This document shows, piece by piece, positions 6,332 through 31,476 of a stretch of DNA of 47,422 nucleotides. The stretch is from assembly GCA_020831585.1 (NCBI GenBank), contig JAFIGE010000024.1, positions 1-47,422 of the forward strand, in the 5' to 3' direction. Source of the DNA: Opitutales bacterium (GTDB taxonomy: Bacteria; Verrucomicrobiota; Verrucomicrobiia; Opitutales; Oceanipulchritudinaceae). Below the pieces are notes generated by a model. The model had not been told where the DNA came from. It made no database searches and worked only from the letters and a program-made list of their open reading frames with translations. The position numbers and the translations under genes are program-made. Within the stretch, counting starts at the first letter, position 1, and each line of letters starts with the position of its first letter.

Positions 6332-8485
6332 TCAAAACGCCGGTCGCGCCACCGCCACCCCCGCCGCCTCTTCGAGGATCGCCGCCTCCGCCGTTTGCGA
6401 GCGCACCTTGGCCAATTCCGTGAAGTGATCCTGCACGCTGAACGGAGCCTCCCCCTTGGGCGGCGTCAGCGCCCGGTAGCTCCCATTCGGCCGCAGCACC
6501 TTCGCCGCGCGCGTGTCCTTCAGATACGGGGGCAAAATCTCCAGGACAATCTGGTCGCGCAAGGCCGCATCCTCCACCGGAAACACCACCTCCACCCGCC
6601 GGTAGAAATTCCGCGCCATCCAGTCCGCACTCCCGATCCACACCATCGGCTCACCCGCCACCGAGTTCTCGAAATAATAGATGCGGCTGTGCTCCAGGTA
6701 GCGCCCGAGGATACTCCGCACGCGGATATTCTCACTCATCCCCTTCACTCCCGGCACCAGCCCGCAAATCCCCCGGATGATCAAATCGATCTGCACCCCC
6801 GCCCGCGAAGCCGCATACAGGCTCTCGATCGTCTCCCGGTCGATCAGGCTGTTGCACTTCACCATGATCCGCGCCGACTTCCCCTGCTTCGCATTGCGCG
6901 CCTCCCGTGCGATAAACTCGTTCATCTTCTTGTGCAGCGTATACGGAGCCACCAGCACCTTCCGGAAGCTCGGACTCTTCGCGTAGCCCGTGAGCGTATT
7001 AAAGACCTCCGCCACATCCTCCGTCATCTCCGGTTTGCACGTGAAGAGGCTCATGTCCGTGTAGAGCCGCGCCGTCTTCGGGTGGTAATTACCCGTCCCC
7101 AGATGCGCGTAGCGCACGAGCTGCCCCCCCTCGCGCCGCACCACCAGGGCACACTTGCAATGCGTCTTCAGCCCCACAAAGCCATACACCACGTGCACCC
7201 CCGACTCATCCAGCTGCTTCGCCCAGTTGATATTGTTCGCCTCGTCAAAGCGCGCCTTCAGCTCGATCAGCACCGTCACCTGCTTATCGTTCTTCGCCGC
7301 ATCCATCAGCGCCTGCACAATCGCCGAATCGCTGCTCGTGCGGTAGAGCGTGATCTTGATCGCCAGCACCTGCGGGTCGATCGCCGCCTGCCGCACAAAA
7401 TCCACCACCGGCTCAAACGAGTCATACGGGTGGTGCAGCAACAAATCCCCCCCCTTGATCGTATCGTAAATGCTCCCCGGACCCCGCAGCGCCGTCGGCA
7501 GGTGCGCGTAAAACGAAGGAAACTTCAGATCCGGCCGGTCGATCAGATCATACACGCTCATCATCCGCATCAGGTTCAGCGGTCCCTGGATGCGGAAAAC
7601 AAACTGCTTCGAGAGCCGGATCGCCCCCAACAACTCATCCAGCAGCGCCTCCTCCACCGAGTCCTCGATCTCCAGCCGCACCGCCGCCCCCTTGCGCAGA
7701 TTATACAGCTCCTCCTCGATCGATTGCAGCAGATTCTCCACCTCCTCCTCATCGATATACAAATCACTGTTCCGCGTCACCCGGAACGCGTGCAGCGAAA
7801 TGATCTCGTAGCCCGGGAAAAGGGTAGGGGCGAACATCTTCAACACGTCGCTCAAAAACACATAGCATTCCGGAGCCCGCCGCGTCCCCGGCACCCGCAC
7901 CACCCGCGGCAGAATCCGCGGCACCGGAATAAACGCCAGCATCCGCTCGATCTCCGGCGTGTCCGGATCATTCAGCCACAGCAAGATATAGAGCGACTTG
8001 TTCGCAAACTGAGGAAACGGGTGCGCCGGGTCGATCGCCAACGGCGTCAACACCGGCTGGATCTGCTCATCAAAATACGTCCGCAGCCACTGGTGCTCCC
8101 GCCGCGTCAGCTCCTTCCGCGTCTTGAAGAAAATCCCCTTCTCCCTCAGCCCCGGCACAATCTGCTCCCCCCAGCAAGCATACTGCTCCTTCACCAGCGA
8201 ACCCGCCACCGACTGCACCCGCCGCAACTGCTCCTTCGGCCCCAGACCATCAATCCCCGCCGTTGTGATCCCCGACTCCACCTGCTGGATCAAACCCGAT
8301 ACACGAATCTCAAAAAACTCATCCAGGTTTGAACTCACAAACGACAAAAACCGCAGCCGCTCCAGCAACGGATAGCGATCATCCTCCGCCTGCTCCAGCA
8401 CCCGCCGGTTAAACGCCAGCCAACTCAGCTCACGGTTGAAAAACGCACTCTTGTTCTCCTTGCGGTTTTTTTTCGGGGATGCCAT
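6332..8485 (-). CDS. ppk1: Polyphosphate kinase 1
   Basis: The protein of about 717 residues makes polyphosphate from ATP and can run in reverse. The start at 8485 gives [12 protein letters not shown] followed by [19 protein letters not shown], the typical PPK1 N-terminus; the longer frame upstream is GC-rich leader without conserved residues. Family signatures include [59 protein letters not shown] with the phospho-accepting histidine region, and IWIGSADWM-type residues ([11 protein letters not shown]) near the C-terminus. All domains (N, head and two C-terminal PLD-like domains) seem present. A PPK2-type enzyme is encoded at the far end of the window, so this organism has both classes. Confidence 0.96.
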
Positions 8486-25292: not shown

Positions 25293-26732
25293 TCAGCCGT
25301 CGGCCCCGTCGCGGTCATAAAGGCCGTGTTGTTTGAGCTTTTCGCGCAAGGTCAGTCGGGCGACGCCGAGCCACCGCGCCATTTGCGCAATGTTTCCCCG
25401 CGCCCGCGTGTGGGCTGCGCGGAGGAGGGCCTGTTCCGCTTCCGTCACAAGCTCGCTGAGGATGTTTTGGCGCTTGCCCTGCTCGGCTTCGTCGAGGAGG
25501 GCTTTGACGCGCTCGGTCAGGCCAGCGCTTTGCTCAGTGGTCGGGGGCGTTTTTCCTCCCAGGAGGTTTTTCACTTCCTCGGCGGTGGTGGCAAATCCGC
25601 GGGATTGGATGAGGATTTTTCGGACGACATTTTCCAACTGGCGCACGTTTCCGGGCCATTCGGCATCAACAAGGGGCTGCATGGCGGTGGGGCTGAGCTC
25701 TGTCGGGGCGACGCCGCTTTCAGGGGCGTGCCGCCGCATGAAGTATTCCACCAGTTTGGGAATATCTTCCCGGCGTTCGCGCAAAGGGGGCACGAGCAGC
25801 TCCACGGTGTTGATGCGGTAATACAAGTCCTCGCGGAAGTGTTTGGAGGCGATCAGCTCCTCGAGGGGCTGGTGGGTAGCAAAGACCAGCCGCACATCCA
25901 CCGGGATCATTTCCTTGCCGCCGAGGCGGCGAATGGCCCGCTCCTGCAGGACCCGCAGGAGCTTCACTTGCAAGGGCAGAGGCACATCCCCGATTTCATC
26001 AAGAAATAGCGTGCCCCCTTCCGCCTGCTCAAAGCGACCGATGCGGCGGTGCTCGGCACCTGTGAAGGCTCCGCGCTCGTGGCCAAAGAGCTCGCTTTCG
26101 AGGAGGCTTTCCGGGAGGGCGGCGCAATTTACCGCAATGAAGGGTTTCTTTTTGCGGGGGCTGAACTGGTGAATTGCCCGCGCCACCAACTCCTTGCCCG
26201 TGCCGGTTTCTCCCCTGATGAGCACGTTGACGGCAGTGGGCGCGACGCGCCCGATCTCTTTGTAGAGGTGTTGCATGGAGCGGCTCGTGCCCACCATGGC
26301 ATCCCCTGAGTCGGCCGCTTCGGGCGCGTCCAAACGCACCTCCCGCCGGGCGAGGGTGGACTGCTGCACCGCCCGCGAAGCAAGATCGAGGATTTCGGGG
26401 ATATCAAAGGGCTTGATGATGTAGTCGAAGGCACCCCGGCGGGTGGCTTCGATGGCCGTTTCCGCGGTTCCGAAGGCTGTCACGAGGATCACGGGGAGGT
26501 GTGGGTGGGCGGCGTGGGTGCGCTCCACCACATCCAATCCGGAACAGCCCGGCAGCCGCAAATCGGTGATGACGAGGTCGATCTGGTCGCCTTCCCTGGC
26601 CACGCGCTCCAGGCCTTTGTCACCGGTGGCCTCGAGGATGACCCGGTAGTTCTCCGATTCGAGCACTTTGGCCATGGACGGTCCGAGGTTGGGATCGTCT
26701 TCAACGAGCAGGATCAGGGGCTTTTTCGGCAT
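25293..26732 (-). CDS. NtrC-family sigma-54-dependent response regulator
   Basis: The 479-residue regulator has three domains. The receiver is at ~1-125 with phospho-acceptor D57 in VITDLRLPG. The AAA+ sigma-54 interaction domain is at ~145-380 with Walker A GETGTGK (174-180), the sigma-54-contacting GAFTGA loop (221-226) and Walker B GTLFLDEIGD. A Fis-type helix-turn-helix ends the protein (RGNIAQMARWLGVARLTLREKL). The start at 26732 (MPKKPLILLVEDD) overlaps the end of the upstream histidine kinase gene by 32 bp, so both are translated from one message. It should activate RpoN-dependent promoters, and one good candidate lies just beyond the kinase gene, ahead of the protease gene. Confidence 0.94.
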   Translation of the reverse strand: MPKKPLILLVEDDPNLGPSMAKVLESENYRVILEATGDKGLERVAREGDQIDLVITDLRLPGCSGLDVVERTHAAHPHLPVILVTAFGTAETAIEATRRGAFDYIIKPFDIPEILDLASRAVQQSTLARREVRLDAPEAADSGDAMVGTSRSMQHLYKEIGRVAPTAVNVLIRGETGTGKELVARAIHQFSPRKKKPFIAVNCAALPESLLESELFGHERGAFTGAEHRRIGRFEQAEGGTLFLDEIGDVPLPLQVKLLRVLQERAIRRLGGKEMIPVDVRLVFATHQPLEELIASKHFREDLYYRINTVELLVPPLRERREDIPKLVEYFMRRHAPESGVAPTELSPTAMQPLVDAEWPGNVRQLENVVRKILIQSRGFATTAEEVKNLLGGKTPPTTEQSAGLTERVKALLDEAEQGKRQNILSELVTEAEQALLRAAHTRARGNIAQMARWLGVARLTLREKLKQHGLYDRDGADG

Positions 26733-28074
26733 AGCGGGGAAGGTAAAGTTTAAAGGTGGAACCTTGGCCGGGATTGGTTTGAAAGGCAATTTGGCCGCCC
26801 ATTCCAAGCATGAGGCGTTGTGTCAGGGCAAGGCCGAGGCCGGTTCCGTTGGCTTTGGTGGTGAAGAAGGGATCGAAAAGACGTTTCTGCACGTCCGGGG
26901 CGATGCCACCGCCGCTGTCGCTCACACTCATGGCAACGACAGGTATGAGCCGACCGTGGTTTTCGATGCGATCGACCGATGTGCGGATGTCGACTACGCC
27001 TCCCTGCGGCATGCTGTCAGCGGCGTTTTGAATGAGGTTGATGAGGCACTGTTTGAGCTGCTCCTCGTCGAGTTCAGCCTCCGCGTTGCACTGGGCGGAG
27101 ACTTCCAGGCAAATGCCGGCGGCAAGGCCGGGTTGGAGGAGGGTGGCTGTCTCCTCCACGATGCGGTCGACCTTCTTGCGCTCCAGGTGGGGTTCGGGGG
27201 GGCGCGCAAGCTTGAGGAAGCTGCGGACGATTTCCTCCAGGCGGTTGAGTTCGGAGTGGATGGTCTCGGCGTCCTCCTGAGCGGAGGCGTTTTCCGGAGG
27301 CACGCCTTTGCGCAGCATGTAAAGGCGCGCTTTGATGGCGAGGAGGGGGTTGCGGATCTCATGAGCCACGCCAGCCGCCAGCATGCCAAGAGAGGCCATT
27401 TTTTCCTGCTGTTCAAGCCGTTCGGACTGCTCGATCATTTGCAGGCGGAGCGGTGCCACGTAGCGCTTGTAGAGTTCATGGCCTTGCCAAAAGAGCATCG
27501 AGACCAGCAGTGCGGCACTCCCGAGAGTCATCACCGCGATAAACTGCAGCGCCCGCCGCGTCTGCTCAAAGAGCCCTTGCAGGCGCGCCTGGTGGGCGTT
27601 GGACAGATCGTTCCCGAGGCTGAGGAGCCGGCTGATCGTGTTCTCCAGCTGCGCGCGTGCCAGACGCCTTGGAACGAAGAGATCGGCCACAAACCGGTTT
27701 CCCTCATATAAGCGGGCGCGCTGAATGAATTCGATATAGGCCACCTGGATGCGTTGCAAGGTCTCGATTTCCTCTTCCGTCGAAAGCAAACCCGCCCGCT
27801 CGTTGAGCCATTCGCCGAGGGCGCGGCTTTGGTTAACGAATTGAACCCACGACCGCGCGTCCTTGTTGATCTCATACTCGAGCAGGGCCACGTCGATCGC
27901 CCGCACGCGGACGAGGTATTGGTCGGCCAGGCGCATCCCCTCGCTGCGCACTTCCTCCACATACCGGTCAATCTGCCGGAACTCCCGATAAAAGAGCCAA
28001 CCCGCCGCACCCAGAAAAGCAACCGCTAAGAGGGCCGTAATGATCAGCGTGATGATGCGTTCGCGGAGGGACAT
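26701..28074 (-). CDS. Membrane sensor histidine kinase (NtrB-like) partner of the sigma-54 regulator
   Basis: The 457-residue kinase has two transmembrane segments (residues ~8-28 and ~178-196) enclosing a helical periplasmic sensor of about 150 residues. A HisKA domain with H238 in GVAHEIRNPL follows, then an HATPase domain with the N-box LIQNAADSMPQGG, SDSGGGI, LFDPFFTTK and GTGLGLAL. The sensor is nearly all helix and has no named ligand motif, similar to four-helix-bundle sensors. The gene overlaps the response regulator. It is divergent from a Do-like protease gene, with 170 bp between, which suggests envelope stress or misfolded-protein sensing. That link is inference from position. 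Confidence 0.93.
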   Translation of the reverse strand: MSLRERIITLIITALLAVAFLGAAGWLFYREFRQIDRYVEEVRSEGMRLADQYLVRVRAIDVALLEYEINKDARSWVQFVNQSRALGEWLNERAGLLSTEEEIETLQRIQVAYIEFIQRARLYEGNRFVADLFVPRRLARAQLENTISRLLSLGNDLSNAHQARLQGLFEQTRRALQFIAVMTLGSAALLVSMLFWQGHELYKRYVAPLRLQMIEQSERLEQQEKMASLGMLAAGVAHEIRNPLLAIKARLYMLRKGVPPENASAQEDAETIHSELNRLEEIVRSFLKLARPPEPHLERKKVDRIVEETATLLQPGLAAGICLEVSAQCNAEAELDEEQLKQCLINLIQNAADSMPQGGVVDIRTSVDRIENHGRLIPVVAMSVSDSGGGIAPDVQKRLFDPFFTTKANGTGLGLALTQRLMLGMGGQIAFQTNPGQGSTFKLYLPRYAEKAPDPAR

Positions 28075-28217: not shown

Positions 28218-28244
28218 TAGAATAATGCAAAACTCGTGCTCAAT

Positions 28245-29738
28245 ATGAAAGCTCAATCAAAGATTTTCACTTTCGCCCTCGCCGGGCTGACCTTGTGCCT
28301 CTCTGGCATGAGCGTGGCAGCGGCGGCCAGCGAAGGTTTGGATCCGACGATTGTCGACCGTGTGCCGCTGATCACCGAAGTGATTGAGCGCGGCCCGCAG
28401 CAAGTCGTGAGTTATGCACACGTTCTCAGTGGAGCCACCCCGGCTGTTGTGTCGGTCCACACGGCGCGTGTCGTCCAAGTCGTTCGGGGCGGAGTTGATC
28501 CCCGTCAGGAGTTTTTCAACCGTTTCTTCGGAGTTCCCTCCCCGCAGCCGAGGGAAGGCGAGGGGCCGGTCGTGGAGGAGCGTGTTCGCCCGGAAGGTAT
28601 TGGCTCGGGCGTCGTCATTTCCCCGGATGGTTACATCCTTACGAATAACCACGTCATCACCAACCGTTCGGATGGAGTGGCCGATGAAATCCTTGTGCGT
28701 CTCAATGACGACCGGGAATTCACCGCCCGTGTCGTCGGTCGGGACCGCCGCACTGACATTGCCGTCCTCAAGATTGAGGCCGAAGGACTTCCCTATCTCC
28801 CCATCGCTGACAGCAACAATATCGAAGTGGGCGATGTCGTCTTCGCCATCGGCAATCCGATGGGTGTCGGTATGACCGTGACCAAGGGCATCGTTTCTGC
28901 GACCGGCCGCGGCGGCCTCGGTATCCTCGGCGACGACAGCTTCGAGAATTTTATCCAGACAGACGCCTCCATCAACATGGGGAATTCCGGGGGTGCGTTG
29001 ATTGATGCGACAGGACGTCTGATTGGTATCAATACGGCAATTTTGTCCCGCACTGGCGGCAATATTGGAATTGGTTTTGCCATTCCCAGCACGCTTGCGC
29101 ACTCCATTTTCGTGAACCTCGTAAGCACTGGCACGGTCCGCCGGGGTTTCATGGGTGTGACGATTGCTGATCTTACGGATGTTGTGGCGGAGGCCATGGG
29201 AATAGCGAATACACGTGGTGTGATTCTCCAGGAAGTGGAGGAAGGATTGCCTGCGGCCAAAGGAGGCCTGCAGCGTGGCGATGTGGTGGTTGAGTTTAAC
29301 GCCCGCCGGGTGCGCAACGCCAATGAATTCCGGATGGCCGTGGCGCAAATGATGCCTGGGTCGGAGGTCCCTGTTCGGATTTACAGAAACGGCGAGTCGA
29401 TGACCCTAACGGTCATCCTTGGAGATCGCGATGAAGTTCGCATGGTTCAGTCTGACGTGCCTTTCGTCGAAGGCGTTCTTCTCTCCACGCTCACGGATGA
29501 GTTGCGCGAACGCTTTCGCATCAGCGAGAGCGCGAATGTCCAGGGCGCGATCGTGACTCAGATCGATCCCCGTTCTCCATTCGCTCGCACTTTGCGGGTT
29601 GGAATGGTCATCGTTGAGATCAACGATCAGCCGGTGAATTCCCCCTCCGAAGCCGCTCGCCTGCTGCGCCGGGGAGCAAATAAACTTTATGTGTTTGATC
29701 GCGGAAGATTCGGCTTTTTAGGTCTCCGTTCCGCTTGA
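28245..29738 (+). CDS. Do/HtrA-type periplasmic serine protease
   Basis: The 497-residue protease/chaperone has a signal peptide (TFALAGLTLCLSGMSVAAAA). The trypsin-like domain has H136 in ILTNNHVITN, D171 in RRTDIAVLKI and S248 in NMGNSGGALID, a complete triad. Two PDZ domains follow (~280-375 and ~400-490). It is of DegP/DegQ type and degrades or refolds damaged envelope proteins. I use the ATG at 28245; a GTG at 28236 would add three residues. Its TGA stop lies inside TTGACA, a possible -35 box of the RNA element downstream, and the terminator of that element probably also ends the protease transcript. A decayed duplicate of its 3' end lies at about 30075-30210. Confidence 0.95.
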   Translation: MKAQSKIFTFALAGLTLCLSGMSVAAAASEGLDPTIVDRVPLITEVIERGPQQVVSYAHVLSGATPAVVSVHTARVVQVVRGGVDPRQEFFNRFFGVPSPQPREGEGPVVEERVRPEGIGSGVVISPDGYILTNNHVITNRSDGVADEILVRLNDDREFTARVVGRDRRTDIAVLKIEAEGLPYLPIADSNNIEVGDVVFAIGNPMGVGMTVTKGIVSATGRGGLGILGDDSFENFIQTDASINMGNSGGALIDATGRLIGINTAILSRTGGNIGIGFAIPSTLAHSIFVNLVSTGTVRRGFMGVTIADLTDVVAEAMGIANTRGVILQEVEEGLPAAKGGLQRGDVVVEFNARRVRNANEFRMAVAQMMPGSEVPVRIYRNGESMTLTVILGDRDEVRMVQSDVPFVEGVLLSTLTDELRERFRISESANVQGAIVTQIDPRSPFARTLRVGMVIVEINDQPVNSPSEAARLLRRGANKLYVFDRGRFGFLGLRSA

Positions 29739-29768
29739 CATTTTCTCAAAATTTTTCATGGTTAGTAT
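29735..29768 (+). promoter_or_regulatory. Possible promoter of RNA element copy 1
   Basis: TTGACA (29735-29740) overlaps the stop codon of the protease gene and is kept in copy 2, where the surrounding coding DNA has decayed. The -10 box is unclear: CATGGT at 29757-29762 (16-bp spacer) or TAGTAT at 29763-29768 (22-bp spacer). The RNA could instead be processed from the protease mRNA. Confidence 0.35.
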
Positions 29769-29793
29769 AGGTTTGGTTTTTTCATAGGATAGT

Positions 29794-29820
29794 ATGAAGT
29801 CCAGCGAAAGCTGGTGGTAG
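29794..29820 (+). CDS. Possible 8-residue leader peptide with tandem Trp codons, copy 1
   Basis: ATG AAG TCC AGC GAA AGC TGG TGG TAG encodes MKSSESWW, followed at once by in-frame TGA and TAG. An AGGA lies 4 nt before the ATG. Two Trp codons placed about 67 nt ahead of a terminator stem recall trp-operon leader peptides, but no trp gene follows. The Trp codons also form the 3' arm of hairpin 1, so the ORF may be a by-product of the stem. Confidence 0.35.
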   Translation: MKSSESWW

Positions 29821-29882
29821 TGATAGCAACAGTAGATAGAGTAAGCAGCAGCACAGACAGAGGGGCCTAGACAACCCCTTGG

Positions 29883-29919
29883 GGAGCCCGCCACACATAT
29901 TTTGGCGGGCTCCTTTTTT
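29883..29919 (+). terminator. Intrinsic terminator of RNA element copy 1
   Basis: The stem GGAGCCCGCCA (29883-29893) pairs with TGGCGGGCTCC (29903-29913) over a 9-nt loop, followed by six T. It very probably ends both the protease transcript and the RNA element. Confidence 0.93.
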
Positions 29920-30074
29920 GTACGAAGTAAAAACGGGGAAAGTCCGTTTACATATATTCTCGCTGCTTTTTAATAAGGTAAATATCTGTTATCGTATTAG
30001 CAAGATTTATGGGAGTCCTGGACACCTTCACTGATCAAGCCTGGAACCGATTCACCTTTGTTTTGGTTTATGGG

Positions 30075-30210
30075 CACTTTAGGAATCTCCTTATGGGGTC
30101 AAAGATCAGTCGGGTGCCTCTGCATTCCAGTCCCTCTTTCTGCTCCCCTGGTGGCGAAAAACTTTAAGCGTTTGATCACGAAAATTCGATAATTTTGGAT
30201 GCTGAACCGC
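30075..30210 (+). pseudogene. Decayed duplicate of the protease gene 3' end
   Basis: The stretch aligns, with small gaps and many substitutions, with 29588-29734 at the end of the protease gene. Landmarks in order are CACTTT...GGAAT, GATCAGTCGG against GATCAGCCGG, AAACTTTAAGCGTTTGATCACG against AAACTTTATGTGTTTGATCGCG (shown as a pair of short blocks), and CCGCTTGACATTTT in both. The frame is destroyed. Similarity may continue weakly up to about 30015. The segment shows that RNA copy 2 arose by duplication of a unit including the gene end, or that a second protease gene once stood here. 29930-30015 holds nothing I recognise. Confidence 0.6.
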
Positions 30211-30238
30211 TTGACATTTTGTCTGATCCATCTACGGT
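30211..30238 (+). promoter_or_regulatory. Possible promoter of RNA element copy 2
   Basis: TTGACA at 30211-30216 is followed by a 16-bp spacer and TACGGT at 30233-30238, a fair -10 box. The TTGACATTTT block is the only part of the upstream flank kept unchanged between the two copies, which supports a promoter role. Confidence 0.4.
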
Positions 30239-30267
30239 AGGAGTAGTTTTGTTTTTCATAGGATAGT

Positions 30268-30294
30268 ATGAAGTCCAGCGAAAGCTGGTGGTAG
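30268..30294 (+). CDS. Possible 8-residue leader peptide with tandem Trp codons, copy 2
   Basis: The ORF, its AGGA and the three consecutive stop codons (TAG TGA TAG) are identical to copy 1. Because the whole block is identical, this does not by itself prove that the ORF is translated. Confidence 0.33.
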   Translation: MKSSESWW

Positions 30295-30355
30295 TGATAG
30301 CAACAGTAGATAGAGTAAGCAGCACACAGACAGAGGGGCCTAGACAACCCCTTGT

Positions 30356-30390
30356 AGAGCCCGCCACCCATAATTGGCGGGCTCTTCTCT
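30356..30390 (+). terminator. Terminator stem of RNA element copy 2
   Basis: AGAGCCCGCCA (30356-30366) pairs with TGGCGGGCTCT (30375-30385) over an 8-nt loop. The following TCTCTCTC is a poor U-tract, so read-through towards the RAYT gene is possible. Confidence 0.7.
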
Positions 30391-30465
30391 CTCACCAGTA
30401 AATAATAAACTGGTTTTTGGTCTTGTGTATCTGACGAGATGTGTCAGGTTGGGGGTATGTCCAAT

Positions 30466-31476
30466 ATGCATCTGATTCCACCGAGGGGGCGGAGGGCGCC
30501 CCGCATTGTGCGGGAAAAAGTTGAGAGCTGCTACCACGTGGTGAGCCGCATCAATTGGCGGGCGTTTGTGCTCGGTGAGACGGAGAAGGAGGCTTTCCGG
30601 GATCTGCTCAGGCGGGTGGCGGGCTTTTGCGGGGTGGATGTGCTCACTTTTGCCATCCTCGACAATCACTTCCACCTGCTTGTGCGGGTGCCGGGAACGG
30701 TGGGTGAGCTGAGCGATGGCGAGCTGCTGGAGCGCGCCGCCCTGATCTACGGCAGTGAGCGCAAACACCAGCCGTTATCGCTTTTCCGTATCGGGCTGGC
30801 TCTGCAGGCGGGCGGGGAGGTGCGCACGCGGATGCGGTCTCTGCTGATGGAGCGAATGGCTTCGCTGCCGATGTTTGTGAAGCTGCTCAAACAGCGCTTT
30901 TCAATCCTCTTTAACCGCGCCCATGACCGCGTGGGCACTCTCTGGGAGGACCGCTTTCATAGCGTGCTCGTGGAGGATTCGGCGGCCGCATTGCGGGCGG
31001 TGGGGGCCTATATTGATCTGAATGCGGTGCGGGCGGGGATCGTGGGGGATCCGAAGGACTACCGCTGGAGCGGTTACGGAGAGGCCGCCGGGAGTCGGCT
31101 GGGGCTGAAGGGATATCGTCTCTTTGCGCACTTGGCGGGGAAGCATGCGGAATCGTTGGAACAGGTGGCAGCGGCGTATCGGCGCTATCTCTATGTGGCG
31201 GGCAGTGCCCCAGGGAAAGGGGCGGTGTTTGGCAAAGAGGAGATTGAGGCGGTCCTGCAAGCGGGCGGCGAGCTTTCCAGAGCCCAGTTGCTGCGTTGCC
31301 GCCTGCGCTACATGACGCGCGGAGCCGTGATCGGCACGAAGGCCTTTGTAAGTCGCTGGATGGGCCGAGGGGCGGGTAAGCAAACGGCGGCCAACGGTGC
31401 GTTGCAGGCTGCTTCCGCAGAGGGTGAGGATCTGTTGGGCGACGGTCTTTGCGCAGGCCGTCCCAGGATTGATTGA
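30466..31476 (+). CDS. REP-associated tyrosine transposase (RAYT), third type
   Basis: This RAYT of about 336 residues has CYHVVSRINWRAFVLGE at the N-terminus, the HxH pair in LDNHFHLLVRVPG, RFSILFNRAHDRVGTLWEDRF, AYIDLNAVRAG and a long C-terminal extension with TRGAVIGTKAFVSRW. It is more distant from the other two, lacking their WYN and WAERF wording, so it is an independent lineage. The ATG at 30466 has a GGGGG run about 10 nt upstream; ATGs at 30457 and 30439 are alternatives. The shared TTCWGAA block is not seen ahead of this gene. Instead RNA element copy 2 lies upstream. lpd starts 143 bp downstream. Confidence 0.87.
   Translation: MHLIPPRGRRAPRIVREKVESCYHVVSRINWRAFVLGETEKEAFRDLLRRVAGFCGVDVLTFAILDNHFHLLVRVPGTVGELSDGELLERAALIYGSERKHQPLSLFRIGLALQAGGEVRTRMRSLLMERMASLPMFVKLLKQRFSILFNRAHDRVGTLWEDRFHSVLVEDSAAALRAVGAYIDLNAVRAGIVGDPKDYRWSGYGEAAGSRLGLKGYRLFAHLAGKHAESLEQVAAAYRRYLYVAGSAPGKGAVFGKEEIEAVLQAGGELSRAQLLRCRLRYMTRGAVIGTKAFVSRWMGRGAGKQTAANGALQAASAEGEDLLGDGLCAGRPRID

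Follow-up and report, generated by a model that had tools for sequence, protein, structure and literature searches.

A tandemly duplicated candidate sRNA with an A(U/C)AG array in the 3′ flank of an htrA gene of Opitutales

The 3′ flank of an htrA/degP-type serine protease gene in an Opitutales bacterium almost certainly carries a real, selected RNA element, and comparison of its sequence with those of relatives suggests an undescribed RNA family, a kind of sRNA, with a natural tandem duplicate. The element lies in the window, that is, the whole 47,422-nt stretch of DNA that was analysed. It would be an sRNA gene of about 140–150 nt, doubled by local tandem duplication. In its product a small GNRA-capped hairpin would accompany a body that is mostly a single-stranded A(U/C)AG (AYAG) array, and an intrinsic terminator would form the 3′ end. 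Probably it is made as a discrete RNA, either from its own promoter or by processing of a 3′UTR. The features are listed below; R1 is the covariance model of the RNA and g3 the genus that holds its orthologues.

28236–29738, plus strand: htrA/degP-type serine protease gene (Pfam Trypsin_2, 1.9e-36; two PDZ matches)
29735–29740, plus strand: putative −35 box TTGACA of copy 1, overlapping the htrA stop codon
29778–29919, plus strand: candidate sRNA copy 1, conserved block (R1, 151 bits, E 1.2e-39; own genome, in the seed)
29783–29861, plus strand: A(U/C)AG array of copy 1, predicted single-stranded (7 AYAG, 12 YAG)
29801–29814, plus strand: GNRA-capped hairpin of copy 1, CCAGC-GAAA-GCUGG (fold and g3 comparison)
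29862–29878, plus strand: GGGG/CCCC hairpin of copy 1 (fold; absent from the g3 orthologue)
29883–29919, plus strand: intrinsic terminator of copy 1 (stem 29883–29893 with 29903–29913, then TTTTTT)
30040–30212, plus strand: decayed remnant of a second htrA 3′ end, a pseudogene fragment between the RNA copies (alignment)
30211–30216, plus strand: putative −35 box TTGACA of copy 2
30252–30390, plus strand: candidate sRNA copy 2 (R1, 158 bits, E 1.4e-41; own genome, in the seed)
30275–30288, plus strand: GNRA-capped hairpin of copy 2 (fold)
30356–30390, plus strand: terminator stem of copy 2 (30356–30366 with 30375–30385; weak, T-poor tail)

Twin RNA copies behind htrA and the origin of the duplicate

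Copy 1 lies directly 3′ of htrA, no more than ~45 nt past the stop codon. The two copies share exact blocks of 73 nt (29778–29850 and 30252–30324) and 30 nt (29852–29881 and 30325–30354), ~103 nt together, parted by one extra G in copy 1; the start spacing from copy 1 to copy 2 is 474 in the first block and 473 after the extra G. A previous sequence-only reading had described twin blocks identical bar one G, and the matching blocks were recovered with slightly earlier starts, at 29778 and 30252. The computed fold agrees with the GAAA-capped 5-bp hairpin, the GGGG/CCCC hairpin and the terminator stem of that reading, and the change that it had claimed in the terminator was found, pair G29883–C29913 of copy 1 being replaced by A30356–T30385 in copy 2 with pairing kept. 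The terminator tail of copy 2 (TTCTCTCT) is far poorer in T than that of copy 1 (TTTTTT). Dinucleotide shuffling showed that the full-length RNA folds better than shuffled sequences (z about −1.9 to −3.0), and that once the terminator is taken away the remaining 5′ part has no such advantage (z +0.96), indicating that the structural signal resides in the small hairpins and the terminator. As modelled, the rest of the RNA is a largely single-stranded motif array.

The DNA around the copies, previously taken as strongly diverged, is indeed decayed, but it is not merely diverged, because the segment 30040–30212 duplicates the htrA 3′ end. Alignment of this segment with 29560–29738 scored 126, compared to a mean of 70.5 (sd 7.4, maximum 95) for 200 mononucleotide shuffles; further upstream, at 29926–30080, the similarity was not significant. 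This likeness to the htrA end ahead of copy 2 indicates that the tandem duplication took in the RNA together with the end of the gene. The duplication amounts to a natural experiment: the copied coding part (~180 nt of the htrA end) decayed afterwards, and the RNA remained almost unchanged. Selection or gene conversion could each suffice alone to explain the near-identity of the copy 2 RNA. The conservation of single-copy orthologues, described below, shows that selection acts on the RNA even where it has no twin.

The neighbourhood also contains an IS200-like Y1 transposase gene (30439–31476) directly downstream of copy 2, and a histidine kinase with a sigma-54-type response regulator (25293–28074, minus strand) divergent from htrA; the g3 genome G009 has a kinase-like gene at the equivalent place, likewise divergent from htrA. 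That the transposase adjoins copy 2 would fit a repeat of mobile or REP-like type that this element carries along. We rejected this explanation as extremely improbable: the 5.28-Mb genome has no close copy of the RNA besides the twins, which local duplication accounts for; the comparison of the RNA with plasmids and phages gave no match; and in g3, where the orthologue behind htrA is single-copy, aroQ-like coding sequence takes the downstream place that a transposase has here. A REP/BIME element was discarded on the same ground of two tandem copies only. The sequence-only reading, which had named a mobile repeat among the outcomes that would count against it, spoke of an sRNA pair and possibly a multicopy regulator; the pair stands, whereas its multicopy nature comes down to a local tandem duplication in a genome whose relatives have one copy each, not to dispersal.

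The TTGACA of copy 1 is located inside a 12-nt block, GCTTGACATTTT, which is identical in copy 2 amid the decayed flank, and TTTACA is found in front of the RNA in the g3 orthologues. No convincing −10 box followed TTGACA, and a consensus promoter scan of the plus strand found none, so that a promoter of the RNA's own is only suggested by the kept TTGACA. Transcription beginning close to such a promoter would yield an RNA of about 150 nt.

Orthologues and selection on the RNA

When 55 relatives were searched with the nucleotide sequence (E 0.001), only the own genome matched. Orthologues were located via htrA synteny, and later by the covariance model R1, which was built from four sequences, G013 not among them. 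Synteny placed the RNA behind the closest htrA relatives in G002 and G009 (genus g3), and R1 also detected it in G013 as a single copy (E about 1e-34) with the same sequence as in G002 and G009. One orthologue is thus present behind htrA in each of three g3 genomes. The closest htrA relatives, those of G002 and G009, are 68% identical to the gene in the window and likewise precede the RNA; the sequence downstream is aroQ-like coding sequence with no transposase. Between G002 and G009 the 130-nt RNA is 100% identical over its whole length, at 81–87% identity per 100 bp in htrA and the downstream gene.

Since the single pair change between the two copies is weak evidence for a selected structure, the orthologues supply the real test. 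Between genera, 6 of the 16 stem pairs were altered on both sides; in the terminator stem this applied to 5 of 11 pairs among the four sequences, and in the GNRA hairpin of g3 the outer pair C-G became U-A and the loop GAAA became GAGA. Pair cells across the four sequences were standard in 63 of 63 cases, compared to 29–52% paired in slid controls, a result obtained with two near-identical pairs of sequences and a structure chosen on the same alignment. The GGGG/CCCC hairpin was missing from the g3 orthologue. Related genomes hold homologues with compensatory changes, whose absence would have counted against the earlier reading. The accompanying claim of selection on RNA structure is borne out with respect to purifying selection and compensatory pairs, and needs amendment in that the single-stranded A(U/C)AG motif counts equally.

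The same orthologues bear on a leader peptide gene (ATGAAGTCCAGCGAAAGCTGGTGGTAG, MKSSESWW) with an attenuator-like terminator. This frame is open in both copies, has AGGA four bases upstream and contains two Trp codons; it is absent from the g3 orthologues, where the hairpin is kept instead, and no biosynthetic gene lies downstream. We therefore rejected a leader peptide as having next to no likelihood.

Over 273 genomes of the order, R1 produced only 15–23-bit matches outside g1/g3, which upon inspection were terminators, coding-like sequence or simple repeats. One R1 match (L048, G172:C29) is an ACAGAAC repeat in several copies, with no terminator, before a gene with a pilin/pseudopilin-like start, and is probably unrelated to the RNA. 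An exact 34-nt pattern of the RNA was absent from the named genome collection, in which an htrA scan gave an Opitutales MAG as the best match (46% identity). The RNA had been called unrecognised, in agreement with Rfam searches that matched no family at gathering or permissive thresholds. GibS membership was rejected, the GibS model (RF04182) giving 20.2 and 19.5 bits (E about 3–4), far below its gathering cutoff of 115. FopS gave no match in the scan of all 4227 Rfam models of release 15, from which FopS may be missing.

AYAG arrays before terminators and sister loci of the same design

Arrays of similar appearance were found at other loci. In the same genome, one array (C130) is located behind a radical-SAM gene (Pfam Radical_SAM), which on our reading of its sequence appears nrdG-like; the array has 15 AYAG here and 5–6 in g3, where the site carries AUAG/ACAG arrays with a GAGA-capped hairpin. 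At the nrdG-like 3′ site of genera g4–g7 a terminator is preceded by purine-rich arrays that are often AGAGAGAC; this use of AGAGAGAC instead of AYAG means that the motif may not be limited to YAG. About ten family genomes (L232–L239, L243, L244) show a purine-rich array, small hairpins and a terminator in the nrdG-like 3′ flank. A sigma-70-family gene of g3 (L202–L204) has a YAG array between stop codon and terminator, with numbers of CATAG and CAG units that differ among three species, and L208 (G003), listed with these g3 sigma-gene arrays, likewise has YAG between stop codon and terminator. A similar array follows the stop codon of a gene in G010. The C42 element (L085 about 6850–6970, G000:C42) of the own genome is intergenic, with ~550 nt between it and the closest gene upstream, and combines an AYAG array, a GNRA hairpin (GACC-GAAA-GGUC), a second hairpin and a terminator; it is absent at the syntenic site in g3. 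The nrdG-like and sigma arrays had no Rfam match. R1 matches between the htrA, nrdG-like and sigma arrays were weak and mostly in the terminator; they appear to share a common design, and homology between them is only putative.

AYAG counts exceeded those of dinucleotide shuffles in copy 1 (7 versus 2.5, with 0 of 500 shuffles reaching 7), C130 (16 versus 6.7) and C42 (7 versus 1.7). Within g3, an excess over shuffles was observed for the nrdG-like element (6 versus 2.9, p 0.026) and the sigma 3′UTR (3 versus 1.0, p 0.016), and that of the htrA RNA over dinucleotide shuffles was not significant (5 versus 3.0, p 0.10). Among 526 terminator-like sites in 1.48 of the 5.28 Mb, 522 had 0–3 AYAG in the preceding 110 nt and the four outliers were both copies (7 each), C42 (7) and C130 (14), a distribution that shows separation and not frequency because the sample includes contigs picked for candidate arrays. 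AYAG triples were not enriched genome-wide (45 versus 58 for the reversed pattern), and a whole-genome triple-AYAG search, upon inspection, found no further locus of such architecture. It is arrays ahead of a terminator that are exceptional, not AYAG triples as such. Between genera, YAG columns were identical in 32 of 47 cases compared to 12 of 33 for other columns (Fisher p 0.006), a difference that could in part reflect the aligner locking on repeats. In 6 of 6 RNAs tested, pairing was lower at AYAG sites than elsewhere in the body (accessibility 0.58–0.86 versus 0.46–0.66).

Because the RNA follows htrA closely, it might instead be a cis-acting element of the htrA 3′UTR, in which no independent sRNA exists and array and terminator serve the htrA mRNA itself, by stabilising or ending it. 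The ~45-nt distance from the stop codon, the lack of any other terminator seen before the RNA, and the similar arrays after the stop codons of the g3 nrdG-like and sigma genes and of the gene in G010 all agree with such a role. On the other hand, copy 2 has a nearly identical RNA block without an intact preceding coding sequence, which gene conversion could equally have kept alike; TTGACA is kept before both copies, and ~550 nt separate C42 from the next gene upstream. Taken together, we consider a purely cis-acting role unlikely.

Possible modes of action and relation to known RNAs

An Hfq-dependent sRNA was rejected, since the PF17209 profile had no match in the own genome (98.5% complete), in which control profiles matched. 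The genome has two RRM_1 proteins (L052 1489–1749 and L053 1489–1959), and RRM was found in 16 of 17 family genomes. The exception, G009 (97% complete, 370 contigs), gave no RRM match though it carries both the RNA behind htrA and the array at the nrdG-like site, representing either an assembly gap or evidence against an RRM partner. In sequence searches neither RRM protein stood out from ordinary RRMs; eukaryotic relatives of solved structure were numerous, and for the glycine-rich protein they included hnRNP A1. The RRMs of hnRNP A1 bind YAGG/YAGN (PMC5503513), so that an RRM can prefer YAG; a YAG preference of the bacterial RRMs here would be an extrapolation from human proteins. In Bacteroides, the bacterial RRM protein RbpB binds a multicopy sRNA family (PMC11697453).

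The arrays might alternatively belong to a base-pairing sRNA, with GAYAG/ACAG repeats serving as short seeds for CURUC near start codons, as for FopS/GibS and susC-type mRNAs of Bacteroides. The largely single-stranded RNA would suit such pairing, and a duplex of −35.2 kcal/mol was predicted at G000:C4 near 14711 (UUGUCUGUUGUUGGCUGUC-AUG). A gene in C57 has four CUGUC around its start codon; this gene (L086 about 6333, minus strand) is endonuclease/exonuclease-like, and its CUGUC, which complements the array motif, may mark a target or be chance. In the first 1.0 Mb (664 genes) CTRTC near starts numbered 32 versus 20 (rank 1 of 30 permutations, p 0.03), but when the CTRTC excess was set in advance as the test for a further 297 genes, on new contigs, it was not reproduced (12 versus 8, rank 8 of 30, p 0.35). 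Across 202 starts, moreover, the array paired no better than its dinucleotide shuffles, 27–35% of which were as good, and array length and spacing differ between genera, unlike a fixed seed. Base pairing is thus a possibility to which we give limited weight.

Motif number and spacing vary freely, the motif is kept and AYAG stays open, a behaviour that fits multi-site docking of a protein better than a fixed seed. Together with the absence of Hfq, the presence of RRMs and the precedents of hnRNP A1 and RbpB, it makes docking or a decoy function our leading guess; protein docking as decoy or scaffold may be the main job of the RNA, a tentative assignment. In the mechanism we propose, of which transcription, protein binding, partner identity and decoy role are all steps that we infer, the array would offer many docking sites to a protein that binds single-stranded RNA and prefers YAG, the two RRM proteins being the best candidates in this Hfq-negative genome. 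Working in trans, the RNA would serve that protein as a decoy or scaffold, somewhat like CsrB for CsrA, and the pool would be joined by RNAs from two further loci built alike. It is a more doubtful proposition that the htrA, nrdG-like, g3 sigma and C42 arrays form an undescribed YAG-array class, acting as decoys with freely evolving site number in an RRM-based, Hfq-free network.

sRNA biology is little explored beyond a few phyla, and post-transcriptional control in Hfq-less, RRM-bearing bacteria is largely open, RbpB in Bacteroides being the main worked case that we found. The loci described here offer a compact testable set: one RNA, its natural duplicate, three orthologues from other species, two sister loci and two candidate proteins.

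Decoys of the CsrB/RsmZ type carry many short protein-binding motif repeats and a terminator. The htrA RNA resembles them in its motif repeats and terminator, a working likeness only: GGA lies in hairpin loops there, whereas A(U/C)AG lies in predicted single strands here, and the structure without GGA loops led us to reject assignment to that class. Type-I 3′UTR-derived sRNAs with an internal promoter are similar in their location in an mRNA 3′ flank and in the common terminator; the RNA here differs in having been duplicated with the end of the upstream gene, and its promoter is only putative. FopS and GibS of Bacteroides thetaiotaomicron are alike in being paralogous sRNAs with a single-stranded body and an intrinsic terminator in an RRM-using bacterium (PMC11697453). 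FopS is unlike the RNA described here in that it has a conserved pairing seed in place of a motif array, and the FopS/GibS copies of Bacteroides are dispersed, whereas those behind htrA stand in tandem.
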